Part shown: positions 39,203-62,887 of the stretch, in pieces | Layout of the letters: each line of letters begins with the position of its first letter | Numbering within the stretch: the first letter of the stretch is position 1 | Assembly (NCBI GenBank): GCA_947625355.1 | Contig: CANQOA010000006.1 | Coordinates: 1 to 64,000, forward strand | Reading direction: 5' to 3' | Source: an uncultured Oscillospiraceae bacterium | GTDB taxonomy: Bacteria; Bacillota; Clostridia; Oscillospirales; Oscillospiraceae | DNA length: 64,000 nucleotides | Notes under the pieces: generated by a model | Told to the model about the DNA's origin: nothing | What the model saw: only the letters and a program-made list of their open reading frames with translations | The model's database searches: none | Position numbers and translations under genes: made by a program

Positions 39203-39243
39203 TTCCCGGTGGTCTTGGAAGTCAAGACCGCCGGGAATTTTTT
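39203..39243 (+). terminator. Rho-independent terminator of ssrA
   Basis: TTCCCGGTGGTCTTG pairs with CAAGACCGCCGGGAA (one G-U) around loop GAAGT and runs into six T, starting at the tmRNA 3' end. Confidence 0.95.
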
Positions 39244-39480: not shown

Positions 39481-39647
39481 CGGCAGCGCCCGGGCGGGTG
39501 CTGGCGTCCGGGGCGGCCGGAGCGCCGTCCATGGCGGGACGGGCGTCTTGCGTTTTGAGGTCTTGCGCCGATGATCCGGGCGGGAGCGGACGCTCCCCAT
39601 GGCGGGCCGTCGTGCGCTGTGTATGTCGGCGGGAACGAGGAAAGGAT

Positions 39648-41789: not shown

Positions 41790-42727
41790 GCCTGGCGGTG
41801 CTGCTGCTCCTGATCCACCTGGCGGTGTGCCTGGTGGTGTACATATTGGAGAAGCTGGGCGCGCTGCGGGCCAGCCAGCTGTCTATGTCCATCGTGGTGC
41901 TGGTCCCCGTATGGGGGATGCTGTGCCTGCTGGTGCAGGAGATCCGCGCGCGGCTCCATGCCGACCCCAGCAAGGATGTGGGCATCGAAAAGCTGCTGAT
42001 CGACGATGAGATCCAGCGGAGCATCGTGGTGGACGAGGACGCGGACGCGGAGAGCGTGGTGCCTCTGGAGGAGGCGCTGCTGGTCAACGACGTCTCCACC
42101 CGGCGGGGGCTGATGATGGAGGTCATGTACGCCGATCCCGGCGACTACGTGACCCAGCTGCAGGCCGCCCGTATGAACGACGACACGGAGGTGGTCCACT
42201 ACGCCGTGACGGCGCTGGTGGAGCTGCAGAAGGAATACGACCTGCAGTTCCAGCGCCTGGAGCGGATCGTGGCCCTGAATCCGGACGACGACGGGGCGCT
42301 GAACGAGGAGATCTCGCTGATGGAGCGGTATCTGGGCAGCGGCCTGCTGGAGGGCAATGCCCGCATCATGCAGCTGCGCAGCTACAGCGACCTTCTGGCG
42401 CAGCGCCTCGCCAAGGGCGAGACGGCGTCTCTTTGGGCGCGGAAGGTGGATACGGACCTGAAGCTGGGGGAGTACGACAAAGCGGACGAGGGCATCCGGC
42501 GGATGCTGGAGCAGTGGCCCCAGGATGAGCGCGGATACCTGTTCCTCATCCGGTATCACGCCCAGGTGAAGGATCGGGAGGGCATCGACCGGGCCTTGGA
42601 TCTGATCCGGGAGAAGAATGTGTATCTCTCTCCCAACGGCCGGTCCGAGGTGCTGTTCTGGGGCGGCGAGGTCGACTGGAACGCCGGGAGCCCGAAGGAG
42701 GCTGAGATCGCGGAGGTCACGGTATGA
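41786..42727 (+). CDS. pelE: PelE-like membrane protein with TPR-type region
   Basis: 313 aa. Two N-terminal membrane segments (LAVLLLLIHLAVCLVVYILE; LSMSIVVLVPVWGMLCLLVQ) precede a cytoplasmic helical region; from about residue 140 the spacing resembles TPR repeats (YAVTALVELQKEYDLQFQRL, YDKADEGIRRMLEQWPQDER). This is the layout of PelE, which bridges PelD to the glycosyltransferase in the Pel complex. It is coupled to both neighbours by ATGA overlaps. Confidence 0.8.
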   Translation: MSLAVLLLLIHLAVCLVVYILEKLGALRASQLSMSIVVLVPVWGMLCLLVQEIRARLHADPSKDVGIEKLLIDDEIQRSIVVDEDADAESVVPLEEALLVNDVSTRRGLMMEVMYADPGDYVTQLQAARMNDDTEVVHYAVTALVELQKEYDLQFQRLERIVALNPDDDGALNEEISLMERYLGSGLLEGNARIMQLRSYSDLLAQRLAKGETASLWARKVDTDLKLGEYDKADEGIRRMLEQWPQDERGYLFLIRYHAQVKDREGIDRALDLIREKNVYLSPNGRSEVLFWGGEVDWNAGSPKEAEIAEVTV

Positions 42728-44580
42728 AGAGAGAACACGCCGCCGGCGGCGCGGAGCGGCAGCGGCTCAATTTCAAGCGGATGCAGATCGTGATCGTGCT
42801 GTTCGTGCTGCTGACGATCGTGCTGTATCTGGTGCAGAAAAGCGTGTCCTATCGGTCGCAGGGCACCAGTCAGCTGGAGCTGCTGGCGCCGGAGACGCTG
42901 GCCGCGGCGGCCGCGGAGACGGCCGAGCAGGAGCCTGTCTGCCTTCTTCTGTGGCAGGACGACCCCCACGGCCGGGCCGGCAGGGACCTGATGGAGGATG
43001 TGCTGGACCAGACGAAGGTCCCCTATGTCAGCCAGGAGGCGAGCACCTCGGCGGCGGAGGAGCTGGACCGGTACCAGACGGTGGTGCTGGCGGTGGACGA
43101 TCTGAGCGTGCTGGGCGAGAGCGTGATCGATATCATGGATTGGGCTTCGTCCGGCGGCGGTCTGATGCTGTTCGACATCCCCTCCCGGAGCGGGTATCTG
43201 GATCTGCTGTTCGCGCAGATCGGCGTCGCGGGGATGCGCGACGATTATGTGGTGGTGAGAGGGCTGCATTTCTGCCGCCCGTTCATGCTGGGAGGCGAGC
43301 TGCGGGATTACGGCATCACGGACCCCTATGAGTCCTCCGTGCCGGTGCTGCTGGACAGCCAGAGCGAGGTGTATATCCAGTCTACCGGCAGCGATCCGGT
43401 GCCGATCCTGTGGCGGCGTCCCCTGGGAGAGGGGACGGTAGTGGTGTCCAATCTGGACTTCGCCGACAAGATCTACCGGGGCTTTTACGCGGCCGCGTAC
43501 AGCCTGCTGGGAGATGGCTTCGCCTGGCCGGTGATCAACGGCGCCACATTTTATATCGACGACTTCCCCGCCCCGGTGCCCCAGGGGGACGACAAGCATA
43601 TCTCCAAGGATTACAACATGTCCGTGAAGGATTTCATGACCCAGGTGTGGTGGCCGGACGTGCAGCAAATGGCGCTGGAGCACGGGGTCCGCTACACCGG
43701 GCTGGTGATAGAGCTGTATTCCGACGAGACGGAAGCGCCTGTGCCCGCCAATGACGATCTGAACCGATACCAGTATTTCGGCCGGAGCCTGCTGAATATG
43801 GGCGGGGAGATCGGCTTTCACGGCTATAACCACATGCCGCTGGTGCTGAAGAACTTCGATTACCGGGGCGAATACGACGAGTATAAGGCCTGGGGCAGCG
43901 TGGCGGACATGGTCGCGGGGGTGGCGGAGCTGGACCGGTTCTGCGCGTCCCTGTTTCCCGGGGAGAAGTTCCAGGTCTATGTGCCGCCCTCCAACATCCT
44001 GTCAGACGAGGGGCGGGCCATGCTCCATGAGAGTTTCCCCCAGATCAAGGCCGTGGCCAGCACCTATCTGGCGGACGGCGTCTGCTATGACCAGGAGTTC
44101 GAGGTGGCAGAGGACGGAGTCGTGGAAACGCCGCGTGTCATCTCCGGGTATATCATGAGCGACTTTATGTATCTGTCCGCCGTGGCGGAGCTGAACTACC
44201 GCTTCGTGAGCACCCATTTCCAGCACCCGGACGACGTGCTGGACGAGGACCGCGGCGCGGCGCTGGGCTGGGCGGAGATGAGCCGGCGGCTGGACGGCTA
44301 TATGGATTGGCTGTATACCTCCGCGCCGGACATCCGCAACCTGACCGGTACGGAGCTGGCCGCGGCGGTCCAGCGGTATGACAATGTCCGGGTGGACCGC
44401 GAGCTGACGGAGGACGCCATGACGCTGACGCTGGGCGGCTTCGTGGACGAGGCGTGGCTGATGGTGCGGCTCAACGGCCGCCAGCCCGGCCAGGTCCAGG
44501 GCGGCGAGCTGACTGAGCTGCTGGATGGGCTGTATCTGCTGCGGGCGGACGAGAGCCGCGTGGTGATCGGGCTGGACTGA
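42724..44580 (+). CDS. DUF2194 protein, putative Pel polysaccharide deacetylase (first copy)
   Basis: 618 aa. One N-terminal membrane span (about residues 20-38), then an extracytoplasmic part. Residues 70-265 form an alpha/beta domain of unknown role; from about 270 a deacetylase-like barrel begins: YIDDFPAPVP (Asp279, Asp280) and GEIGFHGYNHMPL (His366, His370) fit the Asp and His metal ligands of NodB-type polysaccharide deacetylases, and VYVPPSNILSDEGR and VISTHFQHPDDVLDED-like segments follow. In Gram-positive Pel clusters a PelA deacetylase protein occupies this place. N-deacetylation of the GalNAc-rich polymer is the likely role. Overlaps pelE by four bases. Confidence 0.78.
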   Translation: MKREHAAGGAERQRLNFKRMQIVIVLFVLLTIVLYLVQKSVSYRSQGTSQLELLAPETLAAAAAETAEQEPVCLLLWQDDPHGRAGRDLMEDVLDQTKVPYVSQEASTSAAEELDRYQTVVLAVDDLSVLGESVIDIMDWASSGGGLMLFDIPSRSGYLDLLFAQIGVAGMRDDYVVVRGLHFCRPFMLGGELRDYGITDPYESSVPVLLDSQSEVYIQSTGSDPVPILWRRPLGEGTVVVSNLDFADKIYRGFYAAAYSLLGDGFAWPVINGATFYIDDFPAPVPQGDDKHISKDYNMSVKDFMTQVWWPDVQQMALEHGVRYTGLVIELYSDETEAPVPANDDLNRYQYFGRSLLNMGGEIGFHGYNHMPLVLKNFDYRGEYDEYKAWGSVADMVAGVAELDRFCASLFPGEKFQVYVPPSNILSDEGRAMLHESFPQIKAVASTYLADGVCYDQEFEVAEDGVVETPRVISGYIMSDFMYLSAVAELNYRFVSTHFQHPDDVLDEDRGAALGWAEMSRRLDGYMDWLYTSAPDIRNLTGTELAAAVQRYDNVRVDRELTEDAMTLTLGGFVDEAWLMVRLNGRQPGQVQGGELTELLDGLYLLRADESRVVIGLD

Positions 44581-44600
44581 CCGACCTGGGAGGATAGGCG

Positions 44601-46442
44601 ATGAGGATCAAAAAGTTAGGACTGCTCTACCGGGGCATCATCTATCTGTTTGCCGCGTTTCTGCTGCTGGTGATCGCGCTGCTGGGCCGGGAGCTGCTGT
44701 GGAAGAGGCCGGTGGGATCGGCGCCAAAGCTGCCGCTGCTGGACGGACCGCAATGGGAACAGCTGGACGCCGTGAGCCAGGAGCAGTGGACAGACAGAGC
44801 GGAATGCCTGCTCATTTACGATGAGGCCCCCCAGTCCCTGCTGGGGGAGGAGATGATGCGCTCCGCCCTGGAGCAGATGAAGGTCAGCGTCCGGCCCATG
44901 CCCCAGGAGACGTTTCGCCCAGTGTATCTCGACCAGTGTGGCACAGTCTTACTGGATCTGGTCGAGCTGGACGGCCTGGGCGAGAACCTGCCGGATCTGA
45001 TGGATTGGGTGAAGGCCGGCGGGAGCCTGATGCTCCTGAGCCTTCCCACAAAGGACGTCTATACGGAACTGATCTTTGGGGAGCTCGGCATCCTCAGTAT
45101 GGATGAACGGCTTTCCGTCGTACACGGGCTCCGGTGCGTCAAGCCGTTCATGATCGGGGGAGACCAGGACTATTTCATCACGGACCCCTATGAGTCCTCT
45201 ATCGACGTGCTGCTGGACGATCAGTGCGAGGTATATATGGAATCCACCGGGGACGAACACATCCCCCTGATATGGCGCAGGAAACTGGGCGACGGTGCCG
45301 TGGTGGTGTGTAACCTGGGGTTCTATGACAAGATCTACCGGGGGCTGTATGCAGCGGCATACAGCCTGCTGGACGACTGGTTCGCCTGGCCGGTGATCAA
45401 CGGGTCCGCGTTTTTCCTGGACGATTTTCCCGCGCCGGTCCCCTTTGGGAACGACGAATATGTGACGGCGGACTACGGCGTCTCGGTAGGTGATTTCCTC
45501 GTCCGGAACTGGTGGCAGGACCTGAAGGAGCTGGCGCAGAAGCACGGGTTCAGCTACACGGGCATGGTCATCGAGCAGTATTCCAACGTGACGGAAGCGC
45601 CCTTTGAGAAGAATCTCAACGTGAACCGGTACGACTATTTTGGCTACGATCTGCTGGGCGACGGCGGAGAGATCGGTTTCCACGGCTATAACCACATGCC
45701 CCTGGTACTGGGAAATTTCGAATACGACGATGAGTATAGGGAATACGTCCCCTGGGCCAGCGAGGCGGACATGGAGGCCGGACTCACGGAGCTGGACGAA
45801 TTCTGTACGGACCTGTTCGGCGAGAGAGATTTTCGGGTCTACGTGCCGCCGTCCAACATCCTCTCCGAGGAGGGACGGGCGCTGATCGCGGCGCGTTTCC
45901 CCCAGATCAGAGTCATCGCCAGCACCTATCTGGATGACGCCAACGCCTATGTCCAGGAATTCCAGGTGGCGGAGGACGGCGTCGTCGAAATGCCGCGGGT
46001 GATATCCGGGTGCATATTGGATGAGTTCTCCTATCTCTCGGCGTTTGCGGAGCTGAATTTCCACTTTGTGAACACCCATTTCCAGCACCCGGACGACGTG
46101 CTGGACGAGGACCGGGGCGCGGACCTGGGCTGGGCGGAGATGTACCGGCGGCTGTGCGGATACGCCGACTGGCTGTATGCCACCGTGCCCACGATCCGCA
46201 ATATGACCGCCAGCGAGCTGGCGGCGGCAGTGCAGCGCTATGACGCGGTCACGGTGCGCCGGACGCTGGAGGATGACCGGATGGTGCTGGAGCTGGGCAA
46301 CTTCGTGGACGAGGCGTGGTTTTTGGTGCGGCTCAACGGCCATGAGCCCGGAGCCGTGGAAGGCGGCACGCTGGAGGAACAGCTGGACGGCCTCTATCTG
46401 CTGAAGGCGGAGAGCGACCGGGTGACCATCGAATTGGACTGA
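44601..46442 (+). CDS. DUF2194 protein, putative Pel polysaccharide deacetylase (second copy)
   Basis: 613 aa, a tandem paralogue of the preceding gene with the same plan: membrane span near residues 10-31, FLDDFPAPVPFGNDEY, GEIGFHGYNHMPLVLGNFEY, VYVPPSNILSEEGR and NTHFQHPDDVLDEDRGADLG. The candidate metal ligands are kept in both copies, so both are probably active or form a heteromer. N-terminal domains have diverged more than the catalytic regions. GGGAGGAT precedes the ATG, 20 bases after the first copy. Confidence 0.78.
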   Translation: MRIKKLGLLYRGIIYLFAAFLLLVIALLGRELLWKRPVGSAPKLPLLDGPQWEQLDAVSQEQWTDRAECLLIYDEAPQSLLGEEMMRSALEQMKVSVRPMPQETFRPVYLDQCGTVLLDLVELDGLGENLPDLMDWVKAGGSLMLLSLPTKDVYTELIFGELGILSMDERLSVVHGLRCVKPFMIGGDQDYFITDPYESSIDVLLDDQCEVYMESTGDEHIPLIWRRKLGDGAVVVCNLGFYDKIYRGLYAAAYSLLDDWFAWPVINGSAFFLDDFPAPVPFGNDEYVTADYGVSVGDFLVRNWWQDLKELAQKHGFSYTGMVIEQYSNVTEAPFEKNLNVNRYDYFGYDLLGDGGEIGFHGYNHMPLVLGNFEYDDEYREYVPWASEADMEAGLTELDEFCTDLFGERDFRVYVPPSNILSEEGRALIAARFPQIRVIASTYLDDANAYVQEFQVAEDGVVEMPRVISGCILDEFSYLSAFAELNFHFVNTHFQHPDDVLDEDRGADLGWAEMYRRLCGYADWLYATVPTIRNMTASELAAAVQRYDAVTVRRTLEDDRMVLELGNFVDEAWFLVRLNGHEPGAVEGGTLEEQLDGLYLLKAESDRVTIELD

Positions 46443-46464: not shown

Positions 46465-47889
46465 GTGCGGATATGCGTGATACTGGAAGGGTGCTACCCC
46501 TATGTGACCGGCGGCGTGTCTTCCTGGATGCATCAGTATATACAGGCCATGCCGCAGCACGAATTCGTGCTGTGGACCATCGGGGCCAACTCCAAGGACC
46601 AGGGCAAGTTCAAATACACCCTGCCGGAGAACGTGGTGGAGGTAAAGGAGCTGTTTTTGAACGACGCCCTCACCATGAGCTTCCGCAAGCAGCGGTATAA
46701 GTTCAATGACGAGGAGCAGGAGCAGCTGCGACAGTTCATCGAGTGCGGCAGCCCGGACTGGGACGTGCTGTACCACATCTACCACGACAAGGGCGTCTCG
46801 CCCATCGCGTTCCTGATGAGCGAGGATTTTCTCAACATCCTCACCCGCATCTGCCGGGAGGACTACCCCTATACGGCGTTCTCGGACCTGTTCCACACGG
46901 TCCGGTCCATGATGCTGCCGGTGCTGTACACCATCCAGTCGGAGGTGCCCAAGGCGGACATATACCACGCCATCGCCACCGGCTATGCCGGCGTCCTGGC
47001 CCGGCTGGGCAGCTACGTCAACCATGTGCCCTATATGCTCACCGAGCACGGCATCTATACCCGTGAGCGGGAGGAGGAGATCATCCGGGCCAAGTGGGTG
47101 CTGCCGGCGTTCAAGCGGATGTGGGTGCGGTTCTTCTACATGCTGTCCGCCGGCGCCTATGCCAAGGCCACCATGATCACCAGCCTTTTCGAGCGGGCCG
47201 AGCAGCTGCAGATCGGCATGGGCTGCCAGCCGGACCGGTGCCGGTATATCGTCAACGGGGTCCACTTCGACCGGTTCAAGGACATCCCCTACAAGAAGCC
47301 GGACGGCTGGGTGGACATCGGGGCGGTGCTGCGCATCGCGCCCATCAAGGACGTCAAGACCATGCTGTACGCCTTCGCGGATCTGAAAAGACGGATCCCC
47401 AACGCGCGGCTGCATGTCTGCGGACCGGAGGACGACCCGGAGTACGCCCAGGAGTGCTATGACCTGGCGAAGCAGCTGCGGTTGGAGGACGTGGAGTTCC
47501 CCGGCACGGTGAACGTGATCGAGAAGATGGAGCAGTTCGACTTCACCATCCTCACCAGCATCTCCGAGGGACAGCCGCTGTCGGTGCTGGAGTCCTTCGC
47601 CGCGGGGCGGCCCTGCGTGACGACGGACGTGGGCTGCTGCAAGGAGCTGATCGGCGGCATGACCGGCGACGATCTGGGCGCGGCGGGGCTGTGCGTGCCG
47701 CCCATGCACCGGGAGGCAATCAGCAGCGCCATGGAGTATTTGTGTACGCACCCGGAGGAGCGGTACCAAATGGGGCGCGTGGGAAAAGAGCGCGTCCGGC
47801 GGTATTTCCTCCACGAAGATATGGTCACGAACTATCTGGAAGCCTATGAGGAGGTCCTGACCAGATGGCAGGCATCGGATTCAGTTTAA
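46465..47889 (+). CDS. pelF: Pel polysaccharide glycosyltransferase PelF
   Basis: 474 aa from GTG 46465 with AAGGAGG upstream. GT4-type (GT-B) transferase with the PelF hallmark N-terminus (CVILEGCYPYVTGGVSSWMH), VPYMLTEHGIYTREREEEI in the middle and the donor-site region ILTSISEGQPLSVLESFAAG with RPCVTTDVGCC. PelF uses UDP-GalNAc/GlcNAc-type donors to polymerise Pel in the cytoplasm and works with PelD, PelE and PelG. It overlaps pelG by 25 bases. This is one of the best identified genes of the operon. Confidence 0.93.
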   Translation: MRICVILEGCYPYVTGGVSSWMHQYIQAMPQHEFVLWTIGANSKDQGKFKYTLPENVVEVKELFLNDALTMSFRKQRYKFNDEEQEQLRQFIECGSPDWDVLYHIYHDKGVSPIAFLMSEDFLNILTRICREDYPYTAFSDLFHTVRSMMLPVLYTIQSEVPKADIYHAIATGYAGVLARLGSYVNHVPYMLTEHGIYTREREEEIIRAKWVLPAFKRMWVRFFYMLSAGAYAKATMITSLFERAEQLQIGMGCQPDRCRYIVNGVHFDRFKDIPYKKPDGWVDIGAVLRIAPIKDVKTMLYAFADLKRRIPNARLHVCGPEDDPEYAQECYDLAKQLRLEDVEFPGTVNVIEKMEQFDFTILTSISEGQPLSVLESFAAGRPCVTTDVGCCKELIGGMTGDDLGAAGLCVPPMHREAISSAMEYLCTHPEERYQMGRVGKERVRRYFLHEDMVTNYLEAYEEVLTRWQASDSV

Positions 47890-49427
47890 AACGGCTGTTC
47901 TCCCAAAAGGGCGTGCTGGCGCTGTGCCGGGCCTACGGCTATGCGGGAGTCGTCTGCGCCGGGCCCATGGTGCTGGGCGTGATCCTGCTGACGGGCATGG
48001 CCCTGATCGCCCGGCTGGCGGGCGTCAGCGGCCACGACCGGGAGCTGATGAACAGCATGCTCACATACAGCCTTCTCTGGTCCCTGACGGTGACCAGCTG
48101 GTTCAACATGGTGGTGACCCGGTATACCTCCGACATGCTCTACGAGGAAAAGCCGGAGACGATCATGCCCTCCTTCTATGGGAGCCTGTCCATCATGCTG
48201 ACCATCGTCACCATCACCTACGGCATCTTCCTGCACTTCTCCGGGGTGCGGCTGGTGTACCAGCTGGAGTGCCTGTGGTTCTCGCTGGTGCTGGTGGTGG
48301 TCTGGACGGAGACGGTGTATCTGACGGCCATCAAGGATTATAAGGGCATCGTGCTGGCCTTTGCCATCTCCCTGATGATCGGGTTCATCCTGTCGCTGAT
48401 CCTGGTGATCCTGGGCATAGCCACCATCGCGACGCTGATGCTGTGCGTGATCGTGGCCTACGGCATTTTGATGACCTGGTACTATAAGCTGCTGCTGGAC
48501 TATTTCCCGAACAGCAGGCAGAGCAAATTCGCCTTCCTGCGCTGGGCGGACAAATACAGGAGCCTGTCTTTGATCGGCGGGTTCGTGAACGTGGGGCTTT
48601 TCGCCCATCTGGTGATCATGTATTTCGGCCCGCTGCGGGTGCAGGTGGAGGGGCTTTTCTACGGCGCGCCGCTGCACGACGTGCCGGCGCTGGTGGCGTT
48701 CTTCTCCATCCTGATCACCACCGTGAACTTCGTCACCTCCGTGGAGGTGCGCTTCTATCCCAAGTACCGCAACTACTACAGCCTGTTCAACGACAACGGC
48801 TCCATCCGGGACATCGAGCAGGCGGGGCGGGAGATGGTGAGCGTGCTGCGCCAGGAGCTGACCTATGCCGGCCACAAGCAGTTCCTCTGCACGGTGCTGT
48901 TCGTGGTGCTGGGGTCGTATCTGCTGGAGCGGACCGAGCTGGGCTTCAGCGACCTGGCCCTCAGCATCTTCCGGTTCCTGTGCGCGGGCTATGGCGTGTA
49001 TGCCATCAGCAACTCCCTCATGCTGATCCTCCTGTACTTCGAGGACTATACCGGCGCGCTGCTGGGCACGTTCGCTTTTGCCGCCGTCAGCGTGGGCGCC
49101 ACGATCTATTCCATTTTGTATGTGCCGGTGAACTACTACGGCCTGGGCTTTTTCGCCGGCGGCCTCTGCTTCTATTTCATCGTGTGGATACGGCTGGAGT
49201 GGTATATCCGGCGGCTGCCCTATTTCCTGCTGTGCCGCCAGGCGGTGGTGCCGGGTCTGGACCATGGGCCGCTCATTGCCCTGTGCGACCGGCTGGACGC
49301 CCGGCAGGAGCGGATGGAGGCCAAGCGGCAGGCAAAGCAGGACGCCAAGGCGGACAGACGCCGGGCCAAACGCATGGAAAAGCTGGGCGAGACGGAGCAG
49401 GCCGCGGCCGCGGATGGGAGCAACTGA
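47865..49427 (+). CDS. pelG: Pel polysaccharide export membrane protein PelG
   Basis: 520 aa. Opens MAGIGFSLKRLFSQKGVL, the PelG hallmark, and has about twelve membrane spans of the MOP/flippase type; VEVRFYPKYRNYYSLFNDNG lies in a cytoplasmic loop. The last 40 residues are charged and lysine/arginine-rich (RQAKQDAKADRRRAKRMEK), a cytoplasmic tail. PelG moves the growing polymer across the membrane. GAGGAGG inside the end of pelF serves its ATG. Confidence 0.92.
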   Translation: MAGIGFSLKRLFSQKGVLALCRAYGYAGVVCAGPMVLGVILLTGMALIARLAGVSGHDRELMNSMLTYSLLWSLTVTSWFNMVVTRYTSDMLYEEKPETIMPSFYGSLSIMLTIVTITYGIFLHFSGVRLVYQLECLWFSLVLVVVWTETVYLTAIKDYKGIVLAFAISLMIGFILSLILVILGIATIATLMLCVIVAYGILMTWYYKLLLDYFPNSRQSKFAFLRWADKYRSLSLIGGFVNVGLFAHLVIMYFGPLRVQVEGLFYGAPLHDVPALVAFFSILITTVNFVTSVEVRFYPKYRNYYSLFNDNGSIRDIEQAGREMVSVLRQELTYAGHKQFLCTVLFVVLGSYLLERTELGFSDLALSIFRFLCAGYGVYAISNSLMLILLYFEDYTGALLGTFAFAAVSVGATIYSILYVPVNYYGLGFFAGGLCFYFIVWIRLEWYIRRLPYFLLCRQAVVPGLDHGPLIALCDRLDARQERMEAKRQAKQDAKADRRRAKRMEKLGETEQAAAADGSN

Positions 49428-49430
49428 CAG

Positions 49431-51278
49431 ATGAAAAGGCCCGTAAGAAAAAAGAAAAGGCATGTGATGGCGCCGGTGGTGATCCTGCTCGCGGCGCTGG
49501 CTCTGGGCGTGGGGACCACTTGGCTTTTGTCCCGCCGGTCCGACGCGGAGAGGGAGCCGGGGCCCAGCCCCACGCCCGAACCCACCCCCCGGGTGGGGGA
49601 CGTGGCCACGAAAGAGCCGGAGCCGGAAGAAGAGCACCTGCGGGAGGATAAGAGCGTCTACGCCGACACCTCGGAGTTCGACCAGGTGGTGACCATGTAC
49701 CTGACGGTGCGGCCCGGCAACGCCGAGGACAGCACCGACCACACCTGGACCGAGATCAACTCCCACGACACCTACTATTACTCCGACCGGAAGATCGACC
49801 GCTACGCCTGCGAGGCCATTTTGCAGGTGGGGGACGAGAACGGCCCCGTGGAGGGGGAGTTCGGCTACGGGGAGACCGTCCCCAACGCCACGGTGTGCGT
49901 CCGGGGCCAGACGTCGTCGCTGGCAGAGCAAAAAAACTACAAGATCCGCATCAAGGACGGCATGGGCACCTATAAGGATATGCAGACCATACCTCTCAAC
50001 AAAGGTGTATACGATTCTCTGCGTTTTCGGAACAAGCTGGTGTTCGATCTGTATCAGGAAGTGCCCCAGCTGACGTCCATCCGCACCCAGTTCGTGCACC
50101 TGTACGTGAAGGACGAGACCGAGGGCGGCAGCGGGGAATTTGAGGATTACGGCCTCTACACCCGGCTGGAGCAGATGAACAAGGACTACCTGGAGAACCA
50201 CGGCCTGGACAGCAAGGGCCATTTCTACAAGATGGTCGTGTTTGAGTTTTTGCTCTATGAGCCGCTGATGATGGCGGGGACTAACCAGGATTTCGACGAA
50301 TGGGCGTTCGAGGAGATCCTGAAACCCAAGGGGGACACCGACAACACCAAGCTCCGGGAGATGCTGGAGGCGGTGAATAACTACGCCGTCCCCATCGAGA
50401 GCATCGTGGAGAAGTACTTCGACGTGGAGAACATATCCTACTTCCTGGCGGCGAATATCTTGGTCGGCAACTACGACTGCGGGCCCCGGAACGAGTATCT
50501 CTACAGTCCCCTCAACTCCGACAAGTGGTACTTCCTGTCCTGGGACTGCGACGCCGGCTTCCAACGGACGGAGAACAGTTTGACGAATTATAATGAGGGA
50601 TCATCCTGGGAAAGAGGGCTGACGCAGTTCGTGGTTTCGGTGCTGTTCAACCGGATGTACAGGGTGGAGGCGTACCGGGATGCGCTGACCATGGCGGTGG
50701 AGGACCTGCGGAGCAATTATTTTACGAAGGAACGGATCAAAGAGTACGTGGATACTTACTCCGAGCTTGTTTTCCCCTATCTTGTCAGCGAACCGGATGT
50801 TATCAAATGGAGCGGGGATGAAGAAAAGTTCAATTACATCGCAAACGCACTTCCCGGCGAGATCGACTTGAACTACCAATACTATCTGGAAAGCCTGGAA
50901 AAACCATGGCCATTTTATGTGGGACTGCCGGAGGAGACGGAGGATGGGCTGCGCGTCAACTGGGACGTGGCCTACGACATGGACGGGGAGGCCATCACCT
51001 ATACCTGTATCCTGGCCAACGACCCAGGCTTCACCGACGTGATCGCCCGGGCCGACGGCATGCGGGTCCCGTCGTGCTATCTCGACGCGGACCTGGAGCC
51101 CGGGGAGTACTATATCCGGGTCCAGGCCACCAACGAGTCCGGGTATACCCAGGACTGCTTTGACTATACGAACCTGGACGAGACGATCGAAGGTAAGCGA
51201 TACGGCTGCTATACGTTCATGAAGAACGAGGACGGGACGTTTACGGCTGTTGGGAAAGTTGCAGGAGAGCAGGGATGA
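49431..51278 (+). CDS. CotH kinase-domain protein, membrane-anchored
   Basis: 615 aa. A basic start and one membrane span (VMAPVVILLAALALGVGTTW) are followed by a Pro/Glu-rich linker and a CotH domain: YGETVPNATVCVRGQTS, KNYKIRIKDG, FRNKLVFDLYQ, a FVHLYVKDETEG-EDYGLYTRLEQMNK stretch and KWYFLSWDCDAGF near residue 365. CotH proteins are atypical secreted kinases; Bacillus CotH phosphorylates spore-coat proteins. The C-terminus (about 500-600) looks like a fibronectin-type beta domain. It begins three bases after pelG, so the kinase is part of the same transcript; a matrix protein or polymer could be the target. Confidence 0.85.
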   Translation: MKRPVRKKKRHVMAPVVILLAALALGVGTTWLLSRRSDAEREPGPSPTPEPTPRVGDVATKEPEPEEEHLREDKSVYADTSEFDQVVTMYLTVRPGNAEDSTDHTWTEINSHDTYYYSDRKIDRYACEAILQVGDENGPVEGEFGYGETVPNATVCVRGQTSSLAEQKNYKIRIKDGMGTYKDMQTIPLNKGVYDSLRFRNKLVFDLYQEVPQLTSIRTQFVHLYVKDETEGGSGEFEDYGLYTRLEQMNKDYLENHGLDSKGHFYKMVVFEFLLYEPLMMAGTNQDFDEWAFEEILKPKGDTDNTKLREMLEAVNNYAVPIESIVEKYFDVENISYFLAANILVGNYDCGPRNEYLYSPLNSDKWYFLSWDCDAGFQRTENSLTNYNEGSSWERGLTQFVVSVLFNRMYRVEAYRDALTMAVEDLRSNYFTKERIKEYVDTYSELVFPYLVSEPDVIKWSGDEEKFNYIANALPGEIDLNYQYYLESLEKPWPFYVGLPEETEDGLRVNWDVAYDMDGEAITYTCILANDPGFTDVIARADGMRVPSCYLDADLEPGEYYIRVQATNESGYTQDCFDYTNLDETIEGKRYGCYTFMKNEDGTFTAVGKVAGEQG

Positions 51279-53056
51279 GGATGAAAACTGTATTCCGCCG
51301 GGCCGGCGCGGTGGTGCTGGTCCTGGCCATGGTCCTGGGCCTGACGGGCTGCACGGACCCCATCGGCGAGGGCATAGCCACGCTCCTGCGCCCGGACGAG
51401 ACATATGAAAAGAGCTCCCACGCCGACCTTTACGATGTGAAGGACGACAAGGAGATCTACGCGGACCTGGCCGACGACGGCGTCATCACCATGTACCTGA
51501 CCGTAGGCCAGGGGGCAGCCTCCGACGGCACAGACCACACCTGGACCGAGGTGAACGCCCATCCTCTGAGCTACTATGAGAGCCTGGGCGTGGAGCCTTA
51601 TAAGTGCGAGGCGCTGCTGCAGGTGGGCGACGAGATCGGCCCCCTGTCCGGCCAGTTCGGCTACGGGGAGCTTACCGCCAACGCCACCGTGCGCCTGCGG
51701 GGCGCGGGGGCCTCGGAGCAGGCCCAGAAGAGCTACCGCATCGACATCAAGACCGGCAAGGGCTCCTGGGAGGACCAGAAGGTGGTGGTGCTCAACAAGC
51801 ACGCGGCCGATCCCACCAAGTTCCGCAACAAGCTGGCCTATGACCTGATGGCGGAGATCCCCACGATGTTCAGCGCCCGGACCTGGTTCGTGCACCTGTA
51901 CGTGAAGGATCGGACCGAGGGCAAGGACGGCCAGTTCGAGGATTACGGGCTGTATACCGCCGTGGAGCAGATCAACAAGCGCTATCTGAAAAACCGGGGC
52001 CTGGACTCCGGCGGCAGCCTCTATAAGGCCGGGACCTTTGACTGGCGGCCCCATGAGGACGCGCTGACGCTGGCCACCTCGGCGGACTATGACCAGGCCG
52101 CCTTCGAGGCGCTGCTGGAGGTCAAGGGCGACGTGGACCACTCCAAGCTGCTGTCGCTGCTCTCGGCAGTGGACGACGAGAGCCAGGACATCTGGACGGT
52201 GGTCCGCAGGTATTTCGACGAGGACAATCTCTTTTACTGGATGGCGTTCCATATCCTCATGGGCAACCGGGATGTGGAGCAGAGCAACTACTATCTCTAC
52301 AGCCCCCAGGGGACGGAGAAATGGTACATCCTCAGCTGGGACAACGACGGCATCCTGCCGGAGGCCTACGCGCGGCTGCGCGACGCCGATTATGACCCCT
52401 CCTGGAACCATGGCATCTTCACCCTGGTCAGCGCCCGGCTCTATGAGCGGATGCTGAAGGACGAGCGGTGCCGGGCGGCCCTGGACGAGGCGGTGGAGAA
52501 CGTGTTGGGCGGCTGGCTGACAGATGACGAGCTGAACGAGCGGACGGAGCGGTATGCCGAGCTCATCAAGGACCTGGTCTACGACATGCCCGACGAGATG
52601 TACCAGCGGGTGTCCAGCGCCAACTATGACCGGCTGGTGCGGGCCATCCCCGACGAGATCGAGAGCAACTATGAGGCCTATAAGGCCAGCCTCAATGAGC
52701 CCTGGCCCTTCCATATCCTGGCCCCGGAGGTTCAGGGGAAGAAGCTGACGCTCCAGTGGGAGCCGTCCTATCTCTATCCGGGGGACGCGCCGGTGTACTC
52801 TGTGGAGCTGAGCCGCGACCCCAACTTTACCGACAAGCTGGTGGACGTGGACAGCCAGACGGAGACGAGCTTGGAGACGGAACTGCTGCCCGAGGGACAG
52901 TATTTCCTGCGGGTCCGGGCCGGCGACGGCCAGGGGTCCTGGCAGGACGCCTATGAATATTACCTCACGGAGACGGACCGGACCATCCACAGCACGCTGT
53001 GCTTCTATGTGCTGGCCGACGGCTCCGTGCAGGCGAACGAGTACATCGAGGAGTGA
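51275..53056 (+). CDS. CotH kinase-domain lipoprotein
   Basis: 593 aa, paralogue of the preceding protein. Lipoprotein leader with lipobox LTGC (Cys near residue 25). CotH domain: GYGELTANATVRLRGAGASE, QKSYRIDIKTGKG, FRNKLAYDLMAEIPT, DYGLYTAVEQINKRYL, and KWYILSWDNDGILPEAY as the counterpart of the DxD-like site. A C-terminal fibronectin-like domain (VYSVELSRDPNFTDKLV; QYFLRVRAGDG) ends the protein. It overlaps the first CotH gene by four bases. Two differently anchored kinases side by side suggest distinct positions on the cell surface. Confidence 0.85.
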   Translation: MRMKTVFRRAGAVVLVLAMVLGLTGCTDPIGEGIATLLRPDETYEKSSHADLYDVKDDKEIYADLADDGVITMYLTVGQGAASDGTDHTWTEVNAHPLSYYESLGVEPYKCEALLQVGDEIGPLSGQFGYGELTANATVRLRGAGASEQAQKSYRIDIKTGKGSWEDQKVVVLNKHAADPTKFRNKLAYDLMAEIPTMFSARTWFVHLYVKDRTEGKDGQFEDYGLYTAVEQINKRYLKNRGLDSGGSLYKAGTFDWRPHEDALTLATSADYDQAAFEALLEVKGDVDHSKLLSLLSAVDDESQDIWTVVRRYFDEDNLFYWMAFHILMGNRDVEQSNYYLYSPQGTEKWYILSWDNDGILPEAYARLRDADYDPSWNHGIFTLVSARLYERMLKDERCRAALDEAVENVLGGWLTDDELNERTERYAELIKDLVYDMPDEMYQRVSSANYDRLVRAIPDEIESNYEAYKASLNEPWPFHILAPEVQGKKLTLQWEPSYLYPGDAPVYSVELSRDPNFTDKLVDVDSQTETSLETELLPEGQYFLRVRAGDGQGSWQDAYEYYLTETDRTIHSTLCFYVLADGSVQANEYIEE

Positions 53057-53061
53057 GCGGC

Positions 53062-53826
53062 ATGAAAGAGCAAGACGCGCTGTCGCCGCCCCGGCTGAAA
53101 TTCCGGAACGAGTGGAAGTACCTGATCTCGGAGTGGGAGGCGTTCACCCTCTGCCAGCGGCTGGAGCCGTTCATGCGCCACGACAGCCACGCCGAAAATG
53201 GGACCTATATGATCCGCAGCCTCTACTTCGACGACATGTGGGACTCGTCCTACAACGAGAAGCTGATGGGCGTGGAGGACCGGTGCAAGTGGCGCATCCG
53301 GTGCTATAACTGCTCCGACGCGTCCATCAAGCTGGAGCGGAAGCTGAAGCGCGGCGCGTACATCCACAAGGACTCCGCCACGATCACCCGTCAGGAGACG
53401 GAGGACATCACCGCCGGCCGGGTCGATTTCCTGCTGGAGCATCCGGCCCAGCTGTGCCGGGAGTTCTATTACGAGTGCCGCACCAAGCTCTTCCGGCCCA
53501 AGGTGATCGTGGACTATGACCGGGAGCCGCTGATCCTGCCGGAGGGAGATGTGCGCATCACCTTCGACCGGAACGTGCGGGCCGCCATTGGAAGCTTTGA
53601 TATGTTCGACCCGGCGCTGCCCACTCTGGAGACCCTTCCGGAGGGGATGCTGGTGCTGGAAGTCAAATTCACGGAATTCCTGCCGGCGCTGATCCATAAG
53701 CTGCTGCCGCTGGACGGCCAGCAGTTCACCGCCGTCAGCAAATATACCCTCTGCTACGAGCAGGCGTTCCACCTATCGGACCCGTTGGCCGGTGTGGTCA
53801 AGACAAACAGGAGGAGAAGAGTATGA
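53062..53826 (+). CDS. VTC-domain polyphosphate polymerase-like protein
   Basis: 254 aa from ATG 53062 (GAGGAG upstream). VTC-type tunnel fold: LKFRNEWKYLISEWEAFTLC, YMIRSLYFDDMWDSSYNEKL, KWRIRCYN, IKLERKLKRG, FRPKVIVDYDREPLI and EVKFTEFLPALI, with the basic residues (Arg/Lys) and the glutamate that line the tunnel of triphosphate-tunnel enzymes. Yeast Vtc4 makes polyphosphate from ATP. Bacterial relatives are regularly next to DUF4956 and CotH genes, as here. It would be cytoplasmic. Four-base overlap with the next gene. Confidence 0.85.
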   Translation: MKEQDALSPPRLKFRNEWKYLISEWEAFTLCQRLEPFMRHDSHAENGTYMIRSLYFDDMWDSSYNEKLMGVEDRCKWRIRCYNCSDASIKLERKLKRGAYIHKDSATITRQETEDITAGRVDFLLEHPAQLCREFYYECRTKLFRPKVIVDYDREPLILPEGDVRITFDRNVRAAIGSFDMFDPALPTLETLPEGMLVLEVKFTEFLPALIHKLLPLDGQQFTAVSKYTLCYEQAFHLSDPLAGVVKTNRRRRV

Positions 53827-54506
53827 GCATAAGCGACTATTTCAAGGACTCGGTCTGGGAGAGCTTCATGAGCGGCCAGGGGCTGACCCTGGATTTCGCC
53901 ATCCAGGCCGGCATCTCCATGGTGCTGGCGGTGATCCTGGGCATGCTGATCTATAAGGTCTACGGCCATTATTACGGCGGCGTCGTCTTTTCCAGTTCCT
54001 TCGCCACCACCCTGGTGGGCATGACCGTGCTGACCACCACGCTGACGCTGGCCATCAGCAGCAACGTCATCATCTCCCTCGGTATGGTGGGCGCGCTGTC
54101 TATCGTCCGTTACCGTACCGCCATCAAGGACCCGATGGACCTGTTCTATCTGTTCTGGGCCATCTCCGTGGGCATCACATTGGGCGCGGGACTGTATGTG
54201 CTGGCCATCATCACCTTCCCGGTGATCATCTTCGTGGTCCATGTGTTCTATCACCGGCGCAAGCGCGGCGCCATCTTCATCCTGGTCGTGCACTACTCCG
54301 ACGAGCGGGCCGGGGACGAGATCATGCGCATCCTGGGCAAGATGAAGGTGCAGCTGAAGTCCAAGACCATCCGGGACGGCGTCACGGAGATGACGCTGGA
54401 GGTGCTGTGCCGGAACAACAATACGGTGTTCCTGGAGAAGATCCAGGAGCAGGAGGGCGTGCGCGACGCCACTTTGATCCAGTATAACGGTGAGTACCAT
54501 GGCTGA
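53823..54506 (+). CDS. DUF4956 membrane protein
   Basis: 227 aa. Four hydrophobic segments between residues 20 and 145 (QAGISMVLAVILGMLIY; SNVIISLGMVGALSIVRYRT; LGAGLYVLAIITFPVIIFVV) and a C-terminal cytoplasmic domain of about 85 residues with a ferredoxin-like pattern. GMVGALSIVRYRTAIKDP is a typical DUF4956 signature. It is the usual partner of VTC-domain proteins and may pass the polymer or phosphate product across the membrane, which is not proven. Confidence 0.85.
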   Translation: MSISDYFKDSVWESFMSGQGLTLDFAIQAGISMVLAVILGMLIYKVYGHYYGGVVFSSSFATTLVGMTVLTTTLTLAISSNVIISLGMVGALSIVRYRTAIKDPMDLFYLFWAISVGITLGAGLYVLAIITFPVIIFVVHVFYHRRKRGAIFILVVHYSDERAGDEIMRILGKMKVQLKSKTIRDGVTEMTLEVLCRNNNTVFLEKIQEQEGVRDATLIQYNGEYHG

Positions 54507-55890
54507 GCGTCCTCCCAAGCACAGTACCGCGCCCTATGTGGTGATCATCGTCCTGGGCCTCATCCTCATCGGACTGCTGCTGTACATCGTCCCCTTCCGC
54601 TACGGGCTGAATGCCTCTGTGGATTACTCCGCCTCCGACGAGCCTTTGAATAACCCTCTGATCGGCTTTGCCCCCTGGGCGGAGAAGGTGGAGGAATGCG
54701 AGGACAGCCAGCTGGTCTATATCGAGCTCCGCTGGGCCGACTGGGAGCCCACGATGGACAGCTTTGACCTCGAAGGGCTGATCGAGCGCTGCCATATCGA
54801 GCGCTGGAAAGAGGAAGGGAAAAACGCCGTGCTCCGGTTCGTGTGCGATATGCCGGGGGACGAGCGGCATATGGATATCCCTGACTGGCTGTATATGCGC
54901 ACCGGCGACGGCGCGTTCTATGACGGCGAATACGGCAAGGGCTACTGCCCGGATTACAGCAACGAGTTCTTCCGGGAGCGCCATGCCCTGGCCATCCGGG
55001 CGCTGGCGGAATACTGCAACCAGGACGAGTTCGTGGCCTATGTGGAGTTGGGCAGCCTGGGCCACTGGGGCGAGTGGCATACCAACGAGGAGGGCGGCGC
55101 GCTGCCCATGCCGGACGCGGAGATCTGCGGCCAGTATGTGCTGGACTACTCCGATGCCTTTACAAACGCCCTGCTGCTGACCCGCAGAAACTATTCCATC
55201 GCCGTGGAAGGCGGCCTGGGCCTGTATCACGACATGACGGGCGACCCGGACGAGACCGAGGAATGGCTGGACTGGCTGAAAAACGGCGGGGTCCAGGAGA
55301 CGGACGGCGAGGCGCTGGAGCTGGTCCCGGTGGAGCATTTCTGGGATGACGCCCCCGTGGGCGGCGAATTCGGCGGCGACCGCACCGACGAGGAGATGCT
55401 CGGCCGCTGGAAGGACGAGACCATGGAGTGCGTGGAGAGCACCCATATGTCCTTCATCGGGCCGCATTGCCCCTCGGGAGAGCTGAAAGACAGCCAGGCG
55501 GCCCAGGAGCTGCGGGAGCGGCTGGGTTACCGGCTGTATGTCTCTCACCTGGAGACGTCGTATGTCTTTGGCAAGAGCCAGCTGGAAGTGCGCATGACCT
55601 GGGGCAACGTGGGGCTGGCGCCGCTGTACTGGGACTGGCCGGTGACGATGTACGTCTATGACAACACCGGCAAGGCGATCTACTGGGAGACGGTGGACAT
55701 CGACCTGCGGAAGCTGACGCCGGGAGAGAACATCGAGACGGTGTCCCATATCCCGTTCACGGACGTGTTCCGCCAGGGGTTCCAGATCGGCATCGGCATC
55801 GAGTCGCCGGATCTGACCCAGCATATCATGCTGGCGATGGAGGGAGAGGACCGAGACGGCGCGAGGGTCATCTACACCTTCGAGTCGTGA
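54499..55890 (+). CDS. Membrane-anchored DUF4832 TIM-barrel-like protein
   Basis: 463 aa from ATG 54499; GTG 54490 is also possible. One N-terminal span (VVIIVLGLILIGLLLYIVPF) and then an extracytoplasmic glycosidase-like part: NPLIGFAPWA, VYIELRWADWEP, VLRFVCDMPGDERHM, VAYVELGSLGHWGEWHTNEE (a glutamate at a beta-strand end) and HMSFIGPHCPSGEL; a beta-sandwich ends the protein. This is the DUF4832 family, related in fold to (beta/alpha)8 glycosidases. Classical PelA carries a hydrolase domain that is otherwise missing here, so this protein may trim the polymer. Last gene of the operon, overlapping DUF4956 by eight bases. Confidence 0.75.
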   Translation: MAERPPKHSTAPYVVIIVLGLILIGLLLYIVPFRYGLNASVDYSASDEPLNNPLIGFAPWAEKVEECEDSQLVYIELRWADWEPTMDSFDLEGLIERCHIERWKEEGKNAVLRFVCDMPGDERHMDIPDWLYMRTGDGAFYDGEYGKGYCPDYSNEFFRERHALAIRALAEYCNQDEFVAYVELGSLGHWGEWHTNEEGGALPMPDAEICGQYVLDYSDAFTNALLLTRRNYSIAVEGGLGLYHDMTGDPDETEEWLDWLKNGGVQETDGEALELVPVEHFWDDAPVGGEFGGDRTDEEMLGRWKDETMECVESTHMSFIGPHCPSGELKDSQAAQELRERLGYRLYVSHLETSYVFGKSQLEVRMTWGNVGLAPLYWDWPVTMYVYDNTGKAIYWETVDIDLRKLTPGENIETVSHIPFTDVFRQGFQIGIGIESPDLTQHIMLAMEGEDRDGARVIYTFES

Positions 55891-55921
55891 CGGCCGCAGC
55901 CTGCGAACGGACTGAAAAGAT

Positions 55922-55960
55922 CCCGGAGACCTTGAAGATCAAGGCCTCCGGGAGTTTTTT
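55922..55960 (+). terminator. Rho-independent terminator of the pel-like operon
   Basis: CCCGGAG-A-CCTTGA pairs with TCAAGG-C-CTCCGGG around loop AGA, with one internal mismatch, followed by AG and six T. Confidence 0.9.
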
Positions 55961-60423: not shown

Positions 60424-60520
60424 GGCTGGCGCGGCAAGACGCGCCTGATGACAGTGAGATCGCCGCGTGAGCGGCAACAAAGATAAAAGCGAAAGGCATA
60501 ACGAGAAAGGAGCGATCACC

Positions 60521-62887
60521 ATGCAAAAGCATTTGGCCCGATCCATCAGCGTTTTCCTGGTCGCCGTGCTGGCCCTGGCGGGGCTTGCCGCCATGCCGGC
60601 CCTGGCGATGGAAGAACCGACGCCGTATATCCCCGGGACCCCGCCGGAGCCCATGGAGTGGGAGGCGGAGGACCCGGCAGAGTCGACGGCCCCCGCGGAG
60701 GGCACCGGCTGGAGCGAGAACCACCACTACTATTATGACCGCGGCTTGCTCCTGACCGGCGCGCAGGTCATCGACGGCGAGCGGTACTATTTCTCCGAGA
60801 CGGAGCCTCGGGGGCGGGTCTACACCGACACCATCTATTACGATAAGGCCGAGAAGAAGTACTACTGCGCGGATCTGGACGGCGCGGCGCGCAGGAACAG
60901 CTGGTACTGCGTCGAGGACCTGGCGGAGGAGCCCTGGTACTACTTCGGCCCGGACGGCGCCATGGTCACCGGCTGGCAGCAGATCGGCGATACGTGGTAC
61001 TACTTCGACGAGCAAAAGGGCACGTACGACGAGTCGCTCGACATGTGGCTCAATCCCACCCTGGGCCAGCGGCAGTATGGCTGGCTCTGGAAGGATAAGA
61101 ACTGGTATTTCCTGGACCCGGACACGGGCGCGATGGCCACCGGTCTGTACATGGTGGGCAACCGGGGATACTACTACTTCAGCGAGGAGCATGACGGCTC
61201 CTTCGGCGTCATGCGCAGCGGCTGGATCCTGCTGGGCGACGAGTACTGCTACTTCGACAAGGACGACGGCCTGATCACCTCCGGCTGGGTCTGGGATGGC
61301 AAGAAGTGGTACTATGTGGACAGCGAGGGCCACCCCCTGTCCGGCTGGCAGCAGATCGGCAGCAAGACGTTCTACTTCAACGAGAAGCATGACGGCTCCT
61401 TCGGCGCCATGTGCAGCGGCGCGGTGAAGGTGGGCGACGAGTACTTCTTCCTGGACAAGGACAACGGCCTCGTGAAGTCCGGCTGGGGCAGCTACAAGAA
61501 CGGCTGGTACTATGTGGACGACGAGGGCCATCCCCTGACCGGCTGGCGGCTCATCGACGGCGAAACCTATTACTTCCAGCCCCGCCAGACCAGCGCCTAT
61601 GGCAGAGCGCTGACCGGCTGGCAGCAGATCGGCGGATACTGGTACTATTTCAACCCCCTTCACAACGGCCATTTCGGCGCTCTGATGACCGGATGGGTGA
61701 CCGTGGACGGCGAGAAGTTCTATCTGGACCCGGCGACGGGGCGGATGACCTATGGCATGCAGACCATCGGCAATGAGCAGTACTATTTCAGCGAGCAGCA
61801 TGACGGCTCCTTCGGCGTGATGCAGACCGGCTGGGTGCTGCTGAACGACGGGTATTACTACTTCAAGGAGGACGGCGCGCTGCTCAGGGGCGTTACCTTC
61901 CAGGACGCCGGCAGGGAGTATACCGTGAACTTCAAGGGCCGGCTGGTATCCGGCTGGGCGCCTGACGGGGCCAGCTATTTCGTCAACGGCATGGCCGTGT
62001 CCGGCATGCGCCTGATCGACGGCGACTTGTACTATTTCGACGAGCATGCCCCGCTGGGCGGCAAGTACGTCAACAAGTCCTTTGAGGACCCCAGCACGGG
62101 AGCCACCTATTTCGCCGGCGCGGACGGCGCCGCGATCAAGGATACCTGGCGGCGCACGCAGTGGCCCGACGGCGACGGATGGGAGTACTATGGCTCCGAC
62201 GGCGCCAGAGCCGCCGGCTGGACCGAGATCGGCGGTTACCGGTACTACTTCTATGACGGCGAGGGCAAGCCGCCCCAGCTGAGCGGCGTGTGGCACCGTC
62301 CCGCGCTGGGCCAGATGGTCACCGGCTGGATGGAGCTGGAGGACGGCACGTATTATCTGGAGGACGACACCGGCCGGCTGGCCGTCGGCGTGCGGTACGT
62401 GGGCGAGGAGCTCTATAACTTCGGCAGCGACGGAAAGCTGCAGGAGGACTGGCAGCCTGGCGAGGATCTGAAGCCCTCCGGCCGCTGGCTCACCGACGGG
62501 ACCTGGCGCTGGTACGACCCCAAGACCGGCATGCAGATGGATGGATTCGTCCGCCTGGAGGACCAGCTCTACTATACCGATCCCGCCGCTGAGGAGGCGC
62601 TGGTCGGCTGGGTGGAGGTCGACGGCGAGACCTATTACATCCATCCCGAGACCGGCCATGTGCTCACCGGCTGCCGCCTGATCGACGGCGCGTGGTACTG
62701 CTTCGATGAGCGGACCGGCGCTCTGGTCACCGGATGGATGGACGTGGAGCAGGTGGGCTGCCGCTACTTCCAGCCCAAGACCGGCGCGATGGCGGTGGAC
62801 GCGGAGCTGAGCATCGACGGCAAGACGGTCCGGTTCGACGAGACCGGCGAGGCCTTTGACAGGGCCGGCTCTCCCCTCTATCAGTAA
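60521..62887 (+). CDS. Secreted protein made of choline/glucan-binding-type repeats
   Basis: 788 aa. Signal peptide (ARSISVFLVAVLALAGLAAM then PALA-ME), a short acidic Pro-rich segment, then more than twenty cell-wall-binding repeats of about 20-24 residues with the pattern TGWQQIGDTWYYFDE / SGWVWDGKKWYYVDSEGHPL. No catalytic domain is visible between the repeats. Such repeats bind choline on teichoic acids or alpha-glucans. A role as surface coat, adhesin or wall-bound scaffold is likely. AAAGGAG precedes the ATG. It follows the anti-sigma-like gene by 97 bases on the same strand with no terminator, so it may be in the ECF regulon. Confidence 0.85.
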   Translation: MQKHLARSISVFLVAVLALAGLAAMPALAMEEPTPYIPGTPPEPMEWEAEDPAESTAPAEGTGWSENHHYYYDRGLLLTGAQVIDGERYYFSETEPRGRVYTDTIYYDKAEKKYYCADLDGAARRNSWYCVEDLAEEPWYYFGPDGAMVTGWQQIGDTWYYFDEQKGTYDESLDMWLNPTLGQRQYGWLWKDKNWYFLDPDTGAMATGLYMVGNRGYYYFSEEHDGSFGVMRSGWILLGDEYCYFDKDDGLITSGWVWDGKKWYYVDSEGHPLSGWQQIGSKTFYFNEKHDGSFGAMCSGAVKVGDEYFFLDKDNGLVKSGWGSYKNGWYYVDDEGHPLTGWRLIDGETYYFQPRQTSAYGRALTGWQQIGGYWYYFNPLHNGHFGALMTGWVTVDGEKFYLDPATGRMTYGMQTIGNEQYYFSEQHDGSFGVMQTGWVLLNDGYYYFKEDGALLRGVTFQDAGREYTVNFKGRLVSGWAPDGASYFVNGMAVSGMRLIDGDLYYFDEHAPLGGKYVNKSFEDPSTGATYFAGADGAAIKDTWRRTQWPDGDGWEYYGSDGARAAGWTEIGGYRYYFYDGEGKPPQLSGVWHRPALGQMVTGWMELEDGTYYLEDDTGRLAVGVRYVGEELYNFGSDGKLQEDWQPGEDLKPSGRWLTDGTWRWYDPKTGMQMDGFVRLEDQLYYTDPAAEEALVGWVEVDGETYYIHPETGHVLTGCRLIDGAWYCFDERTGALVTGWMDVEQVGCRYFQPKTGAMAVDAELSIDGKTVRFDETGEAFDRAGSPLYQ

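Follow-up and report, generated by a model that had tools for sequence, protein, structure and literature searches.

In streptococci and clostridia, genes for CotH, a polyphosphate polymerase, DUF4956 and DUF4832 were described as an accessory group that is contiguous with pelDEADAFG and linked to an epimerase domain on PelD, and a regulation through CotH phosphorylation was proposed (Whitfield et al. 2020, PMC7112168). In S. intermedius this set corresponds to SIR_1591-1594, and a study of 2025 found each of the four genes to be dispensable for Pel production (PMC12345266). Deletion of the DUF4956 gene raised the Pel signal and that of cotH lowered it, aggregation in sputum medium being weaker in both mutants, and no effect on Pel or aggregation was reported for deletion of the VTC gene, encoding the polyphosphate polymerase. 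The DUF4832 protein SIR_1591 is an active glycoside hydrolase, and the accessory arrangement was stated to be absent outside Pel loci (PMC12345266). Recent papers in the literature searched assign bacterial polyphosphate synthesis to PPK1 and PPK2 and treat VTC as a eukaryotic enzyme. We found no earlier report of a near-constant pairing of DUF4956 with VTC in this literature, in which DUF4956 is seldom mentioned and whose scope excluded subscription journals and preprints.

We analysed a stretch of 64,000 nucleotides from an uncultured Oscillospiraceae bacterium (GCA_947625355.1, contig CANQOA010000006.1, positions 1 to 64,000), referred to as the window, on the forward strand of which open reading frames combined with Pfam and NCBIfam matches delineate an operon from PelD at 39498 to a DUF4832 protein ending at 55890. 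It is flanked by terminator-like hairpins at 39202-39238 and 55921-55953, the latter closing the operon, both from a pattern scan only. The first two genes encode a PelD-like protein with an N-terminal epimerase-like region (39498-41789, start codon uncertain; weak Pfam Epimerase match, 9e-4), homologues of which stand beside PelE, PelF and PelG in other loci, and a PelE-like TPR protein (41678-42727; TPR_14, 7.9e-6), which precedes DUF2194 in Pel loci and has its true start probably 3' of the listed GTG; both were assigned by position and weak domain matches. They are followed, in the order of a Gram-positive Pel operon, by two DUF2194 proteins (42724-44580, PF09960 2e-145, in the position of the PelA deacetylase-like gene; 44601-46442, PF09960 4e-143) and, by curated models, the glycosyltransferase PelF (46465-47889; 351 bits against an NCBIfam cut-off of 100) and the exporter PelG (47865-49427; PF16933, 6.9e-128). 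The tandem DUF2194 genes occupy 42724-46442 where a single PelA-deacetylase-like gene is usual, and the same doubling was seen in loci L144 and L145 of the survey described below.

Contiguous with PelG on its 3' side lie CotH1 (49431-51278; PF08757, 4.5e-62), CotH2 (51275-53056; PF08757, 9.6e-59), VTC (53062-53826; PF09359, 3e-35) and DUF4956 (53823-54506; PF16316, 1.2e-8), exactly as the first-pass annotation had read 49431-54506, and the Pfam matches of all four exceed the curated cut-offs. The operon is thus longer than that earlier unit and continues into the membrane-anchored DUF4832 protein (54499-55890; PF16116, 2.9e-14), which its S. intermedius counterpart SIR_1591 marks as a putative glycoside hydrolase. 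The gene junctions from PelG through DUF4956 measure 3, -4, 5 and -4 bp, so that these genes look translationally coupled. The window operon is a further case of the published arrangement, and the Pel accessory gene set itself is not new; what is new is that VTC and DUF4956 are near-inseparable across many bacteria, usually without Pel. Outside the operon, its immediate 5' neighbour is a tmRNA gene (tag ENDNLALAAA) that comes with a strong hairpin (38841-39238) and has SmpB nearby (37680-38174), and on the 3' side a large protein with choline-binding repeats is encoded (60467-62887), which matches a cell-wall hydrolase weakly.

The relation between the four families was examined in 147 genomes of the order and in 134 non-redundant loci with their flanks, the latter enriched for relatives of the window; conclusions on loci use HMM match lists, and the genome-contig profile was built from nine closer VTC sequences. 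Within the order, VTC occurs in 99 genomes, DUF4956 in 96, CotH in 85 and PelG above cut-off in 2. Nearly every DUF4956 gene (125 of 129) stands within 500 bp of a VTC gene, and in the locus sample the two are adjacent in 133 of the 134 cases, the sole exception being a Pel locus of Collinsella ihumii (L198, 9980-13000) where CotH and VTC were present and no DUF4956 was detected after VTC. CotH lies at most 3 kb from at least 44 of the 133 VTC genes in the 147 genomes, compared to about 0.4% expected at random, and VTC was present in 74 of the 77 CotH genomes among the matches listed versus 25 of the 70 others. The clustering of CotH with VTC is no chance assembly, and these counts bear out the earlier proposal that the four families co-occur as a unit.

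The core of this unit is VTC-DUF4956, and it is not tied to Pel. PelG was found nearby in 26 of the 134 loci and not near the other 108, and in 62 loci CotH, VTC and DUF4956 occur together with no PelG within 6 kb, which contradicts the claim of 2025 that the arrangement is restricted to Pel loci. Beside VTC-DUF4956 stands CotH in 87 loci or a Cthe_2159-type carbohydrate-binding protein in 27, never both; some loci, such as L138, L157 and L158, have the pair with no CotH nearby. Examples with the secreted carbohydrate-binding protein are L063 (2829-7172), where this protein is followed by a response regulator and a histidine kinase, L066 (5302-7230) and L080 (9505-13580). In L170 (8298-14227) and L196 (8278-13223), CotH-VTC-DUF4956 is followed by a PelF-like glycosyltransferase and no PelG was found; L170 also has an NAD-dependent epimerase, and perhaps these loci represent another exopolysaccharide system that uses the module. 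CotH is encoded either 5' of VTC or 3' of DUF4956, depending on the lineage. The gene order kinase, kinase, polymerase, membrane protein, from which the first-pass annotation had read a chain of events, carries no such information since this placement varies, and gene order was rejected as pathway evidence.

In a phylogenetic tree of VTC, two clades separate with 100/100 support, one of 36 members, in most of which the partner is a carbohydrate-binding protein, and one of 97, in most of which it is CotH, though the bootstrap values of the tree are not fully settled. DUF4956 follows the same division in 133 of 133 cases, and the distance matrices of VTC and DUF4956 correlate with r 0.91 (permutation maximum 0.08), shared ancestry contributing both to this value and to the agreement of the clades. 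Pel-linked VTCs form separate groups inside the CotH-type clade of 97, one mainly clostridial and including Abiotrophia and Collinsella, the other with Paenibacillus, Bacillaceae, Clostridium and Trichococcus. Given the branches with good support, the Pel label must have changed at least five times, a count in which gains and losses are not distinguished. The nearest relatives of the window are L143 and L144, both Pel loci.

The window VTC (254 aa, ATG start) scores 122 bits with PF09359 (cut-off 23). Its model (mean pLDDT 91.6) has yeast Vtc4 with AppNHp (3g3r) as best structural match (Z 18.6, rmsd 3.2 over 225 residues), and VTC chains take the top eight ranks of the fold matches before the first other triphosphate-tunnel enzyme at Z 15.3, with the exception of one lower Vtc4 entry that is interleaved with other tunnel families. 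A phmmer search of the PDB with the single window sequence returned noise only, whereas a profile search found Vtc4 at 1e-20. The positions of Vtc4 R196, K200, R264, R266, K281, K294, Y359, R361, R373 and D377 are invariant in 133 of 133 bacterial VTCs, and E200, K202 and K227 of the window protein, likewise invariant, align to Vtc4 E426, K428 and K455 by the HMMER alignment combined with column invariance. The active-site lysine, arginine and glutamate set of Vtc4 is thus present, and the protein is predicted to be a cytosolic triphosphate-tunnel polymerase that would make polyphosphate from ATP, judged from its residues and fold. In line with the earlier claim that VTC works inside on ATP, the protein keeps all polymerase residues, the activity itself being a prediction. 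As the protein consists of the VTC domain alone, with neither an SPX nor a transmembrane domain found in it, we file it as VTC-domain only and not as a subunit of a eukaryotic VTC complex.

PPK1, PPK2 and Ppx/GppA were not found in the host genome (96.75% complete). VTC is therefore the only recognised candidate polymerase of this host, which is no proof that polyphosphate is produced. In the 147 genomes PPK1 is equally frequent with VTC (32 of 99) and without it (17 of 48); a role of VTC as PPK1 replacement was considered and is unsupported, since these frequencies show that VTC does not simply replace PPK1.

The DUF4956 protein (PF16316, 35.4 bits, cut-off 30.6) is a membrane protein, as had been supposed, with four to five helices in the membrane and, at its C-terminus, a cytosolic domain that resembles ACT domains. 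Its model (mean pLDDT 87.5) contains five helices of membrane length, two of which are short (81-97 and 104-121) and less certain, followed by a ferredoxin-like domain that matches ACT domains and the C-terminal domain of Mycobacterium tuberculosis MgtC (2lqj). R98 shows no variation and R96 almost none (K in 2 of 133), and K102 and D106 are also invariant within the CotH-type clade; charges at this place, beside the short helices in the membrane, would fit a protein that contacts a polyanion. No solved homologue of the membrane part was obtained by sequence search or among the fold matches, which cover residues 148-226 only; this lack of a match does not show a new fold.

Both CotH proteins carry the CotH kinase domain, with 210.9 (CotH1) and 199.9 bits (CotH2) compared to a curated cut-off of 23.8. 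Their proposed tethering was confirmed: the N-terminus of CotH1, MKRPVRKKKRHVMAPVVILLAALALGVGTTWLL, is a membrane span with no lipobox cysteine, and CotH2 has the lipobox LGLTGC of a predicted lipoprotein, placing both outside the cell by sequence. The fibronectin-like ends held for CotH2, whose tail scanned alone reaches 25.6 bits with fn3 (cut-off 25), and in part for CotH1, whose tail is homologous to that of CotH2 (36% identity, 1e-18) but stays below the cut-off at 16.8 bits. Bacillus CotH requires D228 and D251 and is distantly related to Fam20C (PMC7821199). In an alignment to B. cereus CotH (5jd9) and in the family alignment, these aspartates correspond to NYD and WDCD in CotH1 (Asp 349 and Asp 372) and to NRD and WDND in CotH2, so that both residues, on whose loss a refutation had been staked beforehand, are retained in both copies, and kinase activity is predicted.

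Among the CotH proteins of the surveyed loci, 96 of 100 have both catalytic aspartates and 98 of 100 a hydrophobic N-terminus. Of the four proteins lacking the pair, three are the second CotH of a Pel locus, as though an extra copy were free to give up catalysis; tandem CotH genes occur in 12 of the 29 PelG loci sampled. In the second CotH of L217 (8312-9970), L216 (11378-13141) and L154 (3318-5111), all Pel loci, the first aspartate is replaced by E or K, and these are likely pseudokinases. A single open frame of about 1,090 codons encodes PelG and the first CotH in the complete genome of Claveliimonas bilis and in a MAG of Mediterraneibacter (L145, 4898-8164; L146, 4883-8176); between the two parts lie a basic linker and a span that bears a lipobox. 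Since CotH has start candidates and a lipobox of its own, the frame may yield two proteins and not one; in both cases, PelG and CotH are made together.

We propose that a VTC-DUF4956 module was recruited to the end of a Pel operon together with two extracytoplasmic enzymes of the CotH kinase fold. VTC would elongate polyphosphate from ATP at the inner membrane face, like yeast Vtc4, a step that its residues, fold and analogy to the yeast enzyme render probable. DUF4956 would anchor VTC at the membrane and sense a ligand via its ACT-like domain, and it may pass the chain outward like the membrane part of yeast Vtc1/3/4. Tight pairing and co-evolution with VTC are observed, docking and export are drawn from the analogy, and sequence and fold searches gave no solved structure matching the membrane part; we consider export doubtful. 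CotH1 and CotH2, tethered outside beside PelG, could transfer phosphate to emerging Pel or to a surface protein; their location and catalytic residues agree with this, the donor and the acceptor are assumed, and we rate the step as possible at best. The DUF4832 hydrolase would finally trim Pel, as was shown for its S. intermedius counterpart. The DUF4832 protein had also been named as a possible phosphorylated substrate, a candidate we rejected as unlikely in view of the hydrolase activity of SIR_1591.

A functional VTC-DUF4956 polyphosphate module combined with CotH acting outside on Pel-related material is the reading we prefer, at slightly under an even chance. It draws on the adjacency counts (133/134 and 125/129), the r of 0.91, the invariant Vtc4 residues, the fold ranking, a host lacking PPK, the CotH aspartates, the mutual exclusion of the two partners, the joint PelG-CotH frame and the effects of the CotH and DUF4956 deletions in S. 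intermedius. The whole chain with polyphosphate as the phosphate donor of CotH is improbable. What speaks most strongly against a simple chain is the lack of a phenotype in the published VTC deletion: a strict sequence from VTC over DUF4956 to CotH, as first drawn, conflicts with the phenotypes of the other two deletions. The missing VTC phenotype could be due to the conditions of the assay, to a further polymerase of that strain or to a VTC-independent role of DUF4956. The earlier interpretation is, overall, partly supported.

The same deletions would suit a reading in which VTC-DUF4956 is a regulator in cytosol and membrane that tunes Pel, through MgtC-like phosphate or ATP homeostasis or as a triphosphate or polyphosphate sensor, with CotH as a separate kinase of a Pel-system or envelope protein and no export, as loss of DUF4956 raises the Pel signal and loss of VTC does not. 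The resemblance of its C-terminal domain to ACT sensors and to that of MgtC (2lqj), the weak match to the NCBIfam MgtC model and the regulation proposed by Whitfield et al. point the same way, but a purely cytosolic regulator leaves unexplained why, away from Pel, the pair is usually accompanied by a CotH or carbohydrate-binding protein that is secreted, and the polymerase site is fully conserved; we regard this explanation as unlikely. That intact site would equally serve exported polyphosphate acting as a polyanion that cross-links partly deacetylated, cationic Pel, with CotH holding or attaching it and having no kinase role. PelA-type deacetylase-like genes lie within the operon, and more Pel signal with weaker aggregation after DUF4956 deletion is what a lost cross-linker should give. 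Aggregation was however not reduced by VTC deletion, the polymer of S. intermedius, which is said to be mostly rich in GalNAc, may have a low positive charge, and both catalytic aspartates are kept in CotH; we hold cross-linking to be the most improbable of these explanations.

FAM20-type secretory kinases act on glycans. In the same way, CotH1 and CotH2 could be sugar or polymer kinases on Pel, independent of a VTC that serves another envelope function and travels along by module inheritance. The distant relationship of CotH to Fam20C, the joint PelG-CotH frame, the lowered Pel after CotH deletion and the loci with VTC-DUF4956 and no CotH nearby (L138, L157, L158) agree with such independence, while the near-constant presence of VTC in CotH genomes (74 of 77 among the matches listed) speaks against it. 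To our knowledge, moreover, ATP is not expected outside the cell, and the donor for CotH is therefore problematic, in the preferred reading as well, unless polyphosphate or another donor is supplied; we take independent Pel kinases to be quite unlikely. Returning to the preferred module, it may be extended to a bacterial VTC-type machine in which soluble VTC is docked on DUF4956 and DUF4956 takes the growing chain across the membrane to an outside partner, either CotH, with polyphosphate as donor, or the Cthe_2159 protein. Pel operons would have recruited this machine more than once to phosphorylate or cross-link the polymer; this extension is rather unlikely.

A bacterial VTC that is common, intact in its catalytic site and tied to one membrane partner would give gut Clostridia, Paenibacillus and Collinsella an extra polymerase, possibly with export, and would offer an answer to the general puzzle of the phosphate donor for a kinase outside the cell. 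The host genome, lacking PPK1, PPK2 and Ppx, makes the polymerase question directly testable, and it is the wider VTC-DUF4956 finding that deserves to be pursued.

Compared to the Gram-positive pelDEADAFG operon with its accessory set, the window has the same gene set and order, contiguous with PelG, and differs in having two CotH and two DUF2194 genes. NELoc-2 of Clostridium perfringens (PMC2879425, PMC11677781) likewise brings VTC genes, CotH and a glycosyltransferase together, yet is not described in those papers as a Pel operon; the proteins of 222-226 aa annotated next to them as 'tubulin/FtsZ GTPase' are, from their size and position, probably DUF4956. The window CotH proteins share the kinase fold family and the counterparts of D228 and D251 with the Bacillus spore-coat kinase (5jd9), but are tethered outside the membrane, belong to an exopolysaccharide operon and have FN3-like tails. 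DUF4956 shares with MgtC/SapB proteins an architecture of membrane helices that lead into an ACT-like domain at the C-terminus; its 20.9 bits are far below the 214 for the curated NCBIfam MgtC model and its membrane part is unmatched, which sets it apart from that family. The yeast VTC complex (Vtc4/Vtc3/Vtc1; 3g3q, 7ytj, 8i6v), in which the tunnel exit of Vtc4 faces a membrane channel (PMC12526157), the model for the proposed passage through DUF4956, differs from the window pair in that the bacterial VTC has no SPX and no membrane domain of its own, and DUF4956 has no sequence match to Vtc1 and carries an ACT-like domain. Conversely, both share the tunnel polymerase domain, all active-site residues and the association with a membrane protein. 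The near-constant pairing of VTC with DUF4956 across many bacteria, usually without Pel, suggests that the two are a bacterial equivalent of this yeast machinery for polyphosphate synthesis and export.
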